Shown here one piece after another: positions 20,550 through 49,760 of a stretch of DNA of 49,760 bases. The first letter of the stretch is position 1. Each line of letters opens with the position of its first letter. Both the position numbers and the translations under genes were made by a program. The stretch is from a virus. The stretch spans positions 1 through 49,760 of IMG/VR virus record IMGVR_UViG_3300036791_000553; one strand, given 5' to 3'. The notes beneath the pieces are model-generated. The model saw only the letters and a list, made by a program, of their open reading frames with translations. It did not search any database and was not told the DNA's origin.

Positions 20550-21572
20550 ATGTTAAATGTGCAAGACGCTGCCGTTGCCAAAGCCATGCTGAGCCGAGGT
20601 GACAATCAACACGACATCGCTGCCCATTTCGGAGTCAATCCAGGTAGGATTGCTGAAATTAAGAGCGGCGAAAAATTTCCAGAGGTAAAGGCTGTCCCAC
20701 TTTCGCAAATACCATCTTCGAAGCAGCCGAGATTTGTCGATCCTAAAGCGCCAGCTGCGCAACAATACGAGCAGTTAAGATCTTTCATCAATCAACCGCC
20801 TGAAGGCAGTCGAGTGTTGATCGTCACGCCGGGACTCGCCGAACTCGTGCTCGACCGTTTAAACACCAACAATCGCAAACGGCGCCCGTCAAATATCAAA
20901 CGGTTTGCCGACGCCATGTTGGCAAACAATTGGACTCTAACTGGCGATACAATTAAGTTTTCGCGTAAGAGCGGTTTGTTGCTCGATGGACAAAACCGAC
21001 TCGCTGGATGTGTCAGATCTGTAAAGGCGTTCAAGACCCACGTGGTCTTCGGCATCGATGACGATGCTTTTAGCCGAATTGATGCTGGTGCGACACGGAC
21101 AAATCCCGACACGTTTACGATTGCTGGAGTGCCTTATCCAGCAGTGACGGCCGCAGCCGTGCGATGGTTGATCATTGGGACAGATCGCGGTCGCAAGGTC
21201 GAAAACCAAGAGTTGCTAGATTACTACAACAAACACGTAGAAACGGATCGTATTGAGCAAGCAGTACGAGATGCAATTGCGGTGGGACGGGTACTGCCGC
21301 CCGGAGCACTCGCAGCGCATTTTTATTTGTTTGCCGCCAAGAATGATCGGATAATGATCAAGTTTGCAACTGATCTTATCAAGCGTCGTTCTGGTGGCAG
21401 GAAACTCCTCGAAAAGATTGAGCGGCTTCGCCAGCAACAAATGCGGCGGGTAAATGAGCTACAGATCAATGCACTCACGATCCAGGCATGGAATGCATAT
21501 CGTGCAGGCAAAAGCCTGACGGCAGCAATGCTGAACTGGGACGAGAACAAGGAGTTCCCCACCATTGCCTGA
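20550..21572 (+). CDS. HTH plus ParB/DGQHR-like domain protein, 340 aa
   Basis: Residues 18-42 look like an HTH (NQHDIAAHFGVNPGRIAEIKSG). The middle has NTNNRKRR and ANNWTLTGD, then LLDGQNRLAG with DGQNR at 146-150, a variant of the DGQHR motif found in ParB/sulfiredoxin-like proteins of phages. The C-terminal 170 residues are helical. The family is believed to bind or cleave nucleotides or DNA, but the role in phages is not established. It overlaps the following ParB/methyltransferase gene by 8 bases, so the two act from one transcript. Confidence 0.65.
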   Translation: MLNVQDAAVAKAMLSRGDNQHDIAAHFGVNPGRIAEIKSGEKFPEVKAVPLSQIPSSKQPRFVDPKAPAAQQYEQLRSFINQPPEGSRVLIVTPGLAELVLDRLNTNNRKRRPSNIKRFADAMLANNWTLTGDTIKFSRKSGLLLDGQNRLAGCVRSVKAFKTHVVFGIDDDAFSRIDAGATRTNPDTFTIAGVPYPAVTAAAVRWLIIGTDRGRKVENQELLDYYNKHVETDRIEQAVRDAIAVGRVLPPGALAAHFYLFAAKNDRIMIKFATDLIKRRSGGRKLLEKIERLRQQQMRRVNELQINALTIQAWNAYRAGKSLTAAMLNWDENKEFPTIA

Positions 21573-22839
21573 GGGCGTGAAGACTCGGATGGTTGGGCTG
21601 CGCGGCATTGCCGTGCAGTCCGATCGCCGCATGCGTAAGTTGCGTCCCGAACTCGTGGACGAGCTTGCCGAATCCATTCGGGTGCAGGGCCTCCTGCATC
21701 CTATCATCCTCCGTCCGCGCTCGCGCGATGGCATCGGCTACCTCTTGGTGGTAGGGCGTCATCGACTGGAAGCGGTACGCAAACTCAAGCACGACAATAT
21801 CCGCGCCGAGATTCACGACGGTATGGATGCGGATGCTGCTGAGCTGGCTGAGATCGACGAGAATCTGATCCGGGCCGATCTCACACCAGCTGAACGCGCA
21901 CAGCACATCGGCCGGCGTAAGGAGCTGTACGAGGAGCAGCACCCGGAGACGAAGCACGGGGCAACCTTAAAACGGGGAACAAAAAAGGCTCCAAGATCTC
22001 AAAATGAGAACTCGGCTTTTGTCGATGACACTGCTGCCAAGACCGGCAAAGGCCGCAGCACCGTTGCCCGCGACGCAACGCGGGCCAAGGATTGTGTTGT
22101 GCTCGACCAGATCACCGGTACGTGCCTCGATCAGGGCGACGAGATCGACGCACTCTGCAAGCTGCCGGAAAAAGAGCAGCGCATTCTCGCCAAAGCCGCG
22201 GCCAAAGGCAAAAAGGTTAGCGCCAAAACCCGTTTCAAGCAGATCAAGCGCGACGAGCGCGAGCAGCAGCTGGGCTTGAAGTTGCTAACCCTGCCGATCC
22301 AAAAGTACGGAGTAATCGTCGAGGATTATGAATGGGATTTTAAGGTCTGGTCAGAAGAAGGGATGGGCCGGCACGCAGCGAACCATTACCCAGTCAGTAG
22401 AGACGCCCATACCGCACAAGAGATTGTCGAGCGAACCAAGGATCGAATCGAATGCGCAGCGGACGATTGTGCATTGTTTGCGTGGACGACAGTTCCACAC
22501 CTTGCCATTTGCATCGATGTCTTGCGCTTACGCATGTTTCGTTACGTGTCGAGTTGGACTTGGGACAAGGTCAAGTGCGGAACTGGCTATTGGAATCGCA
22601 ATCGACACGAAATTCTCTTGCTTGGCATCAGAGGTAATATTCCATGCCCTGCCCCAGGTCAGCAATGGGAATCTTTGATCAGCATCAAATCCACCGAGCA
22701 CTCGGCAAAACCGGAACAATTTCTAGCGATGATCGAGGCCTATTTTCCAAGCCTACCGAAGATCGAACTAAACAGACGCGGCGCACTTCGTGCTGGCTGG
22801 GACGCTTGGGGGTTGGAGACGAAGGAGGCCGCTGAATGA
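21565..22839 (+). CDS. ParB-domain / MT-A70-like DNA adenine methyltransferase fusion
   Basis: Residues 1-110 form a ParB-type N-terminal domain (LRPELVDELAESIRVQGLLHPI, GRHR at 64-67, IDENLIRADLTPAER). After a linker with a possible HTH, residues about 245-420 form an MT-A70-type methyltransferase: DCALFAWTTVPHL, WDKVKCGTGYW.RN.HEILLLG, and EHSAKPEQF...PKIELNRR. The catalytic motif DPPW appears as DYEW (254-257), next to the variants DPEW/DPPW I know from related phage proteins. It probably methylates adenine in phage DNA to evade restriction. The fused architecture occurs in other phages. Confidence 0.8.
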   Translation: MPEGVKTRMVGLRGIAVQSDRRMRKLRPELVDELAESIRVQGLLHPIILRPRSRDGIGYLLVVGRHRLEAVRKLKHDNIRAEIHDGMDADAAELAEIDENLIRADLTPAERAQHIGRRKELYEEQHPETKHGATLKRGTKKAPRSQNENSAFVDDTAAKTGKGRSTVARDATRAKDCVVLDQITGTCLDQGDEIDALCKLPEKEQRILAKAAAKGKKVSAKTRFKQIKRDEREQQLGLKLLTLPIQKYGVIVEDYEWDFKVWSEEGMGRHAANHYPVSRDAHTAQEIVERTKDRIECAADDCALFAWTTVPHLAICIDVLRLRMFRYVSSWTWDKVKCGTGYWNRNRHEILLLGIRGNIPCPAPGQQWESLISIKSTEHSAKPEQFLAMIEAYFPSLPKIELNRRGALRAGWDAWGLETKEAAE

Positions 22840-23694: not shown

Positions 23695-23771
23695 TATATC
23701 GCAATTCATAACCATATCAGCGTCTTGCGTGCGTGCCATAACTATTAACTTCAACTGTGGGCCGTAAGCCC

Positions 23772-24503
23772 ATGAAATGGTACAAGCGCGACTGCGACGC
23801 AGCCATGATGGGAATGGCCAAACTGAGCCTTGCTGACCGCGGCGCATATAACAGCCTGATCGATTTGCTTTACAGCCTGGACGGGAATGTTCCCGACGAT
23901 GACCTCTGGGTTGCCAAAACTCTGAACATCCAATGGCTTCAATGGAAGCACGCAAAGGCCCGCCTGATTGCTGCCGGCAAGCTGTGGATAACCCAGGGGA
24001 AAACCGGTGCACAACTCATGTGTAAACGTGTGGAAAAGACCATGGAGGAGGCTGCTAGCCATAGGGCTAGCCCTAGGGCTGTGAACGCCAGCCCCCTAGC
24101 TAGCCCCCTAGCTAGCCCTAGGGCAAATCCTGAAAAACCTAATGATTTCAACAAAAATTCCAGACAGATGTTAGATACTACATATAAGAGAGAGGAAGAG
24201 GGCGGCTACGCCGCCAATTCAACTCGTTCAAAAACAGAAAAGAAGAAAAACCAGGGCGGAGCACCCTCCACCTGGTCCGACGAGTTCCCTTGGCGCCGCC
24301 CGACTACCGCTCGCCGCAACGGCGGACTCCCGTCAGATCAGGCCGCAATGTGGGAGCAGCTCGCCACCACCGCCCAGCCCAATCCAGACCGCGCCCAATA
24401 TCTGCAGCAATTCCGCAAGACCATCTTGCACGCCAAACCGCAGCCGCCACAGGATCCACCCGCCGAAACGGTGGCCGCAGAAAACGGGGACCAACCATCA
24501 TGA
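23772..24503 (+). CDS. DUF1376-type replication protein with internal repeats
   Basis: ATG 23772 is favoured over GTG 23757. The N-terminal 90 residues (MKWYKRDCDAAMMGMAKLSLADRGAYNSLIDLLY, then DDDLW) match DUF1376, a winged-helix-like domain found in replication initiators of phages. Residues about 94-118 are a low-complexity Ala/Ser/Pro/Arg segment encoded by a CTAG-rich repeat cluster, followed by AT-rich DNA. The C-terminal third is Pro/Gln/Arg-rich. This matches the plan of lambda O, where the origin lies inside the initiator gene. A helicase loader gene is not seen downstream. Confidence 0.65.
   Translation: MKWYKRDCDAAMMGMAKLSLADRGAYNSLIDLLYSLDGNVPDDDLWVAKTLNIQWLQWKHAKARLIAAGKLWITQGKTGAQLMCKRVEKTMEEAASHRASPRAVNASPLASPLASPRANPEKPNDFNKNSRQMLDTTYKREEEGGYAANSTRSKTEKKKNQGGAPSTWSDEFPWRRPTTARRNGGLPSDQAAMWEQLATTAQPNPDRAQYLQQFRKTILHAKPQPPQDPPAETVAAENGDQPS
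24054..24200. other. Candidate replication origin: GCTAGCC iterons and AT-rich stretch
   Basis: Four copies of GCTAGCC start at 24054, 24066, 24099 and 24111 (two pairs 12 bp apart), within 12-bp units close to GCTAGCCCTAGG. CTAG is normally scarce, yet the cluster has many. Directly after it, about 24124-24200 is AT-rich (many A runs). The location inside the replication-type gene matches lambda ori. This is inference from layout; initiation was not shown. Confidence 0.55.
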
Positions 24504-25046: not shown

Positions 25047-25619
25047 GTGCAGCTGATCACCGTCGCCCCCAACTGCGAACGCCAGGTTTCCGCGCTGCTG
25101 GCCGCGCGCAAGTTTGAATTTTACGCATTCAGGACTGGCCGCCGCACGGCTCGGCGCGGCCAGCTCCGGGAAACCCTGGTGCCCGCATTCCCGCGGTATA
25201 TTTTTGTTGATGCCAAGCACCGTTGGGAGGATGTCCGCTCGATCAGCCACGTCGGGGATTTTGTGCGGTTCAACGGTCAGATTTGCGAGGTACGGCAGTG
25301 CGTGATCGACGACCTCGTCGACCGCGCCGACGCCAACGGTGTCATCCAGTTTCCCGAGCCACCGCCGCGCTTTCGGCCCGGCACATCGGTAGTGGTAAGC
25401 AGCAACAGCAATCCGCTGTTCGGCAGCCGCGGCGTCTTCGCCCACGACCTCGGCGGCAGGGCCATCGTGCTGCTGCCGTGGTTCAACGGCCAGATGGTCA
25501 GCACGCTGGTTGACGCAAACGATATTGATTTGTTTGCGCTGTCACAGCAGCGCGGCAAGCGCAGGCGCAATCGGCGTCGGCGCAGCGGTACGAGTAGACC
25601 CGGCGCGGCGTTGCAGTAA
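25047..25619 (+). CDS. NusG-like transcription (anti)termination protein
   Basis: 190 residues from GTG 25047. The N-terminal 80 residues follow the NGN domain (TVAPNCERQVSALLAARKFEFY, then LVPAFPRYIFV and VGDFVRFNG). After a linker a KOW-like domain follows (FRPGTSVVV, FGSRGVF, VLLPWFNGQMVSTLVDANDI, about 110-162). The C-terminus is very basic. NusG paralogues such as RfaH modify RNA polymerase for long operons. Its place just before the terminase and the 24-kb late operon suggests a processivity or antitermination factor for late genes. This is inference from context. Confidence 0.75.
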   Translation: MQLITVAPNCERQVSALLAARKFEFYAFRTGRRTARRGQLRETLVPAFPRYIFVDAKHRWEDVRSISHVGDFVRFNGQICEVRQCVIDDLVDRADANGVIQFPEPPPRFRPGTSVVVSSNSNPLFGSRGVFAHDLGGRAIVLLPWFNGQMVSTLVDANDIDLFALSQQRGKRRRNRRRRSGTSRPGAALQ

Positions 25620-49200: not shown

Positions 49201-49204
49201 AACC

Positions 49205-49760
49205 ATGGCCGACGACATCGTCCAGAAAATCATAATCCAAGCCGATGACCAGGCAACGCCGGTCATCAATAATGTTGCGCAACAGGCGAAGCAGGCCTTT
49301 TCTCAATTATCGCAAGCCGGTCAAACTGCGGGGGATGGCACTCAGAAGCTTGCCGCAAGTTTCGATGACCTGTCAAAATCAACTCAAACTGTATCGACCG
49401 GAGCCAAGCAGGTTGCAACTGGCTTCGATGGCATTGATCAGATTGTTTCATCTATTCAATCGCGTAATCCTGGGAAAAGCTTTGAAGATATCAAAGCCAG
49501 CGTGCTGGCCGCTTCCGTCGCGTTTACTGGTACCACGCAGGCTGCGCAGCAGCATGGCGCGGCTCTCAATGAGACAGGACAAGCTGCGGAGCATACATCC
49601 ACCTCCATGCGCGGGCTACAGGGGGAAGCGCGAGCATTAAGAGAAGCATTTAATCTAACTGGTCTTGCTGGTGGAGGGGTTGCTGCCGGCTTAATCAATA
49701 TAGGATTGCATCTCGGCGTAGTTGCTGCCGGCTTCGTGGCTGTTGGTGCAGCTATTTACG
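49205..49760 (+). CDS. Tape measure protein, N-terminal part (3' end outside window)
   Basis: ATG 49205 begins MADDIVQKIIIQADDQATPV, a start typical of tape measure proteins (interaction with chaperones). Gln/Ala-rich helices follow (NVAQQAKQAFSQLSQAG), then hydrophobic GLAGGGVAAGLINIGLHLGV near the end. The frame is open to the last base. The C-terminal portion is read at 1-2073 in a phase that needs 3n+2 missing bases. Confidence 0.85.
   Translation, partial: MADDIVQKIIIQADDQATPVINNVAQQAKQAFSQLSQAGQTAGDGTQKLAASFDDLSKSTQTVSTGAKQVATGFDGIDQIVSSIQSRNPGKSFEDIKASVLAASVAFTGTTQAAQQHGAALNETGQAAEHTSTSMRGLQGEARALREAFNLTGLAGGGVAAGLINIGLHLGVVAAGFVAVGAAIY

Follow-up and report, generated by a model that had tools for sequence, protein, structure and literature searches.

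A probable replication origin inside the linker-coding part of a DUF1376 gene in a contig from a probable temperate phage

The DNA analysed here, which we call the window, is the whole of virus contig IMGVR_UViG_3300036791_000553 (49,760 bp). It encodes an integrase, RecT, a YqaJ exonuclease, repressor-type proteins, a terminase, and portal, major capsid and tail proteins, and tape-measure-like coding sequence occupies both of its ends (1-150 and 49203-49760), without terminal overlap. Because of this gene content, and because both ends lie inside tape-measure-like coding sequence, the record probably represents the genome of a temperate phage in nearly complete form; ends of this kind that do not overlap indicate that the contig is probably circularly permuted as well. 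The features considered below fall within a single DUF1376 gene, with the iteron units and spacer given as they appear in the sequence.

23757..24503, + strand: DUF1376 gene, the proposed initiator; GTG start, 248 aa, matches to PF07120 and phrog_9327
23793..24068, + strand: predicted winged-helix DNA-binding domain, codons 13-104 (AlphaFold2; topology H-H-H-H-E-E-H)
24054..24122, + strand: iteron array made of five 12-bp units and a 9-bp spacer, with 8 CTAG
24054..24065, + strand: iteron unit 1, GCTAGCCATAGG
24066..24077, + strand: iteron unit 2, GCTAGCCCTAGG
Between iteron units 2 and 3, + strand: spacer GCTGTGAAC, 9 bp, in frame
24087..24098, + strand: iteron unit 3, GCCAGCCCCCTA, GCTAGCC with one mismatch
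24099..24110, + strand: iteron unit 4, GCTAGCCCCCTA
24111..24122, + strand: iteron unit 5, GCTAGCCCTAGG
24064-24073: palindrome GGGCTAGCCC, within the iteron array
24070-24079 and 24115-24124: palindrome GCCCTAGGGC, iteron array
24125..24184, + strand: AT-rich stretch, proposed unwinding element, 28.3% GC

No DnaB helicase was found in the nearly complete record, and neither a helicase loader nor a primase was matched among the record genes scanned. The DUF1376 gene is therefore the sole replication-type initiator candidate recognised in the record. No P- or DnaC-type loader gene stands beside it, the next recognised gene being NusG-like (25047-25619, shortly 3'). A similar gene order, with DnaB, DUF1376, DnaA-like and NusG-like genes, occurs in phiLM21 (L149). 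Two genes upstream of the DUF1376 gene, a single protein (21565-22839) fuses a ParB N-terminal domain (ParB_N) to an MT-A70 adenine methyltransferase domain.

The first-pass annotation had proposed a lambda-like origin inside a replication-type DUF1376 gene, and the gene assignment is borne out by matches to PF07120 (E 6e-8, 33.4 bits against a cut-off of 30.1, residues 8-74) and to PHROG 9327, 'primosomal protein' (E 1.3e-10). AlphaFold2, run with a 38-sequence alignment, confidently predicts a winged helix at residues 13-104, with pLDDT mostly 89-97 over residues 21-100. The iteron-encoded residues are modelled as low-confidence coil and are predicted to be disordered, and the C-terminus is predicted to be helical at lower confidence. 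Within the gene, the array sits between the parts encoding the predicted winged helix (aa 13-104) and this C-terminus. The best VIA-align rows for the model are 4pql, 4pt7 and 5kbj, with Z scores of 8.9, 8.3 and 8.1 across 79-85 residues. Eukaryotic ORC winged helices are also among the matches, and since winged helices with no relationship to the protein reach a Z of about 8, values of 8-9 are near background for the fold. Entry 4pt7 is labelled 'Structure of initiator' and 5kbj is a Rep-DNA complex; PMC7145576 gives 4PT7 as a RepA protein of S. aureus. The predicted fold and its matches support DNA binding by the protein, and do not establish the family to which it belongs. DUF1376 was the only Pfam match to the window protein at E values up to 1, with no O-type N-terminal DNA-binding domain among the hits. 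PF06970 (RepA_N) is absent both from the window hits and from the 25 listed of the 31 families matched by 45 DUF1376 members, and when the family profile was searched against PDB sequences, a de novo protein was the sole match (E 0.97).

The four GCTAGCC copies described in the first-pass annotation lie where it had placed them (24054-60, 24066-72, 24099-105 and 24111-117, + strand), spaced by 12 bp inside each pair and by 33 bp between the two pairs; they occupy codons 100-122 of the gene as part of the five-unit array. The motif as such is not unusual in the window (6 matches against 5.1 expected), but 5 of the 6 fall inside 64 bp. CTAG, which had been noted as a rare tetramer, is indeed under-represented in the window (52 copies where 87 are expected) and yet clustered, with 8 of the 52 concentrated in the 67 bp from 24055 to 24121. 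The array encodes the peptide ASHRASPRAVNASPLASPLASPRA, with ASPR/ASPL repeats, in codons unusual for this phage: only 1 in 10,000 simulated versions was as unlikely. When the 27-residue peptide was synonymously recoded with phage codon usage, 200,000 trials gave at most 6 CTAG, once, and never 8; these trials treat codons as independent, and duplication of a unit is therefore still compatible with the result. At the codon usage of this phage, the peptide does not explain eight CTAG in 67 bp.

Across all 150-bp windows of the record, local repeats are densest at 24.0-24.2 kb (27 pairs, with 9 at the next separate place), and the DUF1376 linker holds 29 local DNA repeats where a synonymous-codon null expects 4.0 (p at the floor of 0.003). 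The AT-rich stretch that had been reported after the repeats proves to be the lowest-GC 60-bp window of the entire 49,760-bp record (24125-24184), with no other place as low. In other words, the record's densest repeats and its lowest 60-bp GC adjoin each other at the DUF1376 linker. A DNA hairpin was considered as the functional feature and rejected, the fold z-score being just -1.3. The GC-skew signal that had been suggested as a check did not appear: skew across the record has no clear switch at 24.1 kb and is not informative. We suggest, with a probability of roughly three in four, that 24054-24184 is a phage replication origin lying within the gene of its own initiator, where that gene encodes the linker, its activity and its binding by the protein being read from sequence features.

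We considered how the array might have arisen without such a role. The 12-bp units could be a neutral tandem repeat grown by slippage in a disordered linker, in which case the protein may still be an initiator and the repeats would not be its sites. The window alone is compatible with this explanation, because the 12-bp pitch is codon-phased, giving the in-frame ASPR/ASPL peptide, and because no relative found shares the iterons; the predicted disorder of the linker also fits. Slippage does not readily account for units that differ from one another while preserving CTAG at two registers, despite its scarcity in this genome, nor for an array that adjoins the genome's AT minimum, and the family comparison described below weighs further against it.

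Relatives of the window gene are distant. In the viral contigs, genome contigs, phages and plasmids searched, none exceeds about 30% identity to the window protein, and the nearest relative in alphaproteobacterial genomes is 33% identical and has no CTAG cluster. The iteron pattern GGCTAGCCCTAGGG occurs at 26 loci in viral contigs; none of these loci has a DUF1376 relative or shows a similar cluster within a gene. Among relatives of the terminase (50-63% identity), no DUF1376-type gene was recognised on reading through the listed upstream ORFs, one of these loci having just 866 bp upstream. In the comparison with related phages that the first-pass annotation had advised, a layout with repeats in the linker recurs in the family; the window's own iteron sequence is common to no relative found. 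The best reading of these searches is that the window carries a DUF1376 family member with what appear to be private iterons.

The family comparison drew on DUF1376 genes of phages, prophages and bacterial genomes, thinned to less than 70% identity. An excess of local repeats over the synonymous-codon null (p <=0.05) was found in 44 of 66 DUF1376 genes, whereas of 173 ORFs from their neighbourhood 24 had such an excess (Fisher p 5.6e-15). These control ORFs were picked mechanically and may include spurious ones, and all p-values given for the family overstate independence because the pooled genes are related to one another. A later replicate set was weaker, with excess in 11 of 19 DUF1376 genes and 9 of 29 controls (p 0.08). 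Within the same DUF1376 genes, the linker holds a mean of 11.5 repeat pairs, compared with 0.5 in the DNA-binding domain and 0.5 in the C-terminus (p ~2e-9). Repeat spacing across 85 divergent genes peaks at 11 bp (41 genes, null 4.9) and at 22 bp (24 genes, null 2.8), that is, at one and two helical turns and not at codon multiples. Among the iteron cores, GTTCAAC recurs most: 36 copies, where 5-6 would be expected, are spread over 22 genes from several host groups and five of the six frame and orientation classes. Inverted repeat pairs are likewise enriched (284 versus 107). A further 7-bp spacing (30 of the 85 genes, null 3.4) comes from an A/C-rich array whose AACCA[AG] motif lies almost entirely on the coding strand (155 versus 2) and occurs in each of the three frames; in 16 of 18 genes the array is downstream of the GTTCAAC iterons. 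For 45 of 83 DUF1376 genes, the 60 bp with the lowest GC begin at codons 120-159, and this AT-rich minimum usually lies near the linker repeats.

Taken together, the repeat excess, its location in the linker, the 11- and 22-bp spacing, the frames of GTTCAAC, the A/C-rich array and the AT minimum indicate, at the level of sequence, that the DUF1376 linker is shaped by DNA function. Spacing that is not codon-phased and an excess of inverted pairs are not produced by slippage, and we consider that explanation of the window array unlikely. The window differs from the common pattern in lacking 11- and 22-bp spacing (12 bp within pairs, 33 bp between) and in having no A/C-rich array in its linker. 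The clade nearest to it, that of rhizobial phages, mostly fails the repeat-density test, and several of its DUF1376 genes show 10-, 11- or 22-bp spacing. Strand-specific tandem arrays of A/C-rich units (AACCAAT, AACCAG; 6-7 bp period) are seen in the DUF1376 linkers of L169, L164, L167, L190, L251 and other loci; where it follows the iterons, such an array is a possible unwinding element. One alphaproteobacterial genome (L228) carries in its DUF1376 linker a long tandem array of TTCTATGGATAGC/TCTATGCACAG units. Iteron types mapped on a tree of the DNA-binding domain change 8 times over 25 typed rows, a raw count from which we draw no support.

Rac and PfDIW6 have a DnaC-like gene beside DUF1376, KEN_01, Lbo-JY16 and phiLM21 have a DnaB-like one, and most of the phages annotated have a DnaC, DnaB or DnaA-like gene there, not ParB. 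The Rac prophage, which has a known origin, oriJ, encodes the DUF1376 protein YdaU, whose C-terminal part matches lambda-O-type replication proteins. The linker of E. coli K-12 ydaU (L002:5972-6080) contains repeated and inverted TGTTCAAACA-type sites, and the adjacent ydaV is DnaC-like by annotation of a Rac relative. A literature search did not reveal where oriJ maps with respect to ydaU, and the titles, abstracts and selected passages covered contain no origin assignment for DUF1376 or YdaU. In phage Rac of strain 442/2, the gene called 'ydaU' (L150:1228-2016) shares its C-terminus with K-12 YdaU and has a different, non-DUF1376-like N-terminus, which suggests that DNA-binding domains have been exchanged. 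The lambda-O-type gene O of Gifsy-2 also scores strongly in the repeat test used here.

Slightly less likely than slippage is that the repeats serve another protein, such as the ParB_N/MT-A70 fusion (21565-22839) in a partition-like or methylation role, or an autoregulatory operator, with the origin elsewhere: the fusion gene is close by and clustered palindromes are a typical feature of such sites, but the position in the DUF1376 linker recurs family-wide, the neighbours of DUF1376 genes in annotated phages are mostly of DnaC, DnaB or DnaA-like type, and the record holds no second repeat cluster of comparable density.

Returning to an origin within the DUF1376 gene, we suggest that the N-terminal winged helix would bind the CTAG-rich, near-palindromic iterons, and that several copies of the protein assembled there would strain the adjacent AT-rich 60 bp until the duplex opens. 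The protein's C-terminal part, a host loader or an undetected phage loader could then bring in host DnaB and primase. The linker of the protein would tolerate any residues that the iterons encode. Helicase loading is the weakest point of this mechanism in the window, because no loader gene was recognised.

Since the same layout recurs in most other family genes, DUF1376 proteins probably initiate replication at a site within their own genes. Our evidence is evenly balanced on a fuller proposal, in which DUF1376, to which no function has been assigned so far, would be a large initiator family of phages and prophages with in-gene origins; 11/22-bp helically phased iterons would be read by the winged helix, many members would have after them a strand-specific array of A/C-rich units (AACCAAT/AACCAG, 6-7 bp period) serving as unwinding element and perhaps read as single-stranded DNA, and new iterons, such as CTAG-rich ones, would arise together with the DNA-binding domain in one gene. 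If this is true, it gives a testable function to DUF1376, a domain that many phages and prophages encode, among them the Rac prophage of E. coli K-12 with ydaU, and origin positions in DUF1376-bearing genomes would be predictable from sequence alone. Origins inside initiator genes are already known; the one proposed here would combine that layout with the uncharacterised DNA-binding domain DUF1376.

The best reading of the family is one of winged-helix initiators with a putative in-gene origin, organised like lambda O and the RepA_N plasmids. Lambda O is an initiator with an N-terminal DNA-binding domain whose gene has iterons and an AT-rich tract in its middle (PMC7466680), and the window gene likewise holds iterons and an AT-rich tract inside a proposed initiator gene. 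The likeness to lambda that had been proposed therefore stands as one of layout only, for the window gene directly and for the DUF1376 family statistically. As had also been anticipated, the iterons are unlike those of lambda, in both sequence and pitch (12 bp in the window, with 11 or 22 bp prevailing across the family). The DNA-binding domain is DUF1376, with no recognised lambda O domain, and the window protein has neither a recognisable O-type C-terminus nor a P-like loader gene alongside.

RepA_N initiators (pSK41, pTZ2162) have an N-terminal winged helix, origin boxes in the centre of the rep gene and origin-encoded linker residues that are dispensable (PMC5703833). The window iterons similarly lie in the predicted disordered linker of a proposed initiator, and the RepA-type structures 4pql and 4pt7 are among its top structural matches, at Z scores of 8-9 that are close to background; RepA_N proteins belong to Firmicutes plasmids, in contrast to DUF1376 in phages of Proteobacteria. 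SPP1 gp38 binds direct repeats (oriL) in its own gene 38, beside an AT-rich unwinding element (PMC6316719), but SPP1 infects Bacillus and itself encodes a loader (gp39) and a helicase (gp40). The repC gene of alphaproteobacterial repABC plasmids has an in-gene origin at an A+T-rich region, where silent mutations abolish replication (PMC3155836); no iterons were found in repC, unlike the window DUF1376 gene. The plan of lambda O and RepA_N, with initiator and origin in one gene, lets both move and change together, and if our reading is correct it is widespread in Gram-negative phages under a separately named DNA-binding domain.
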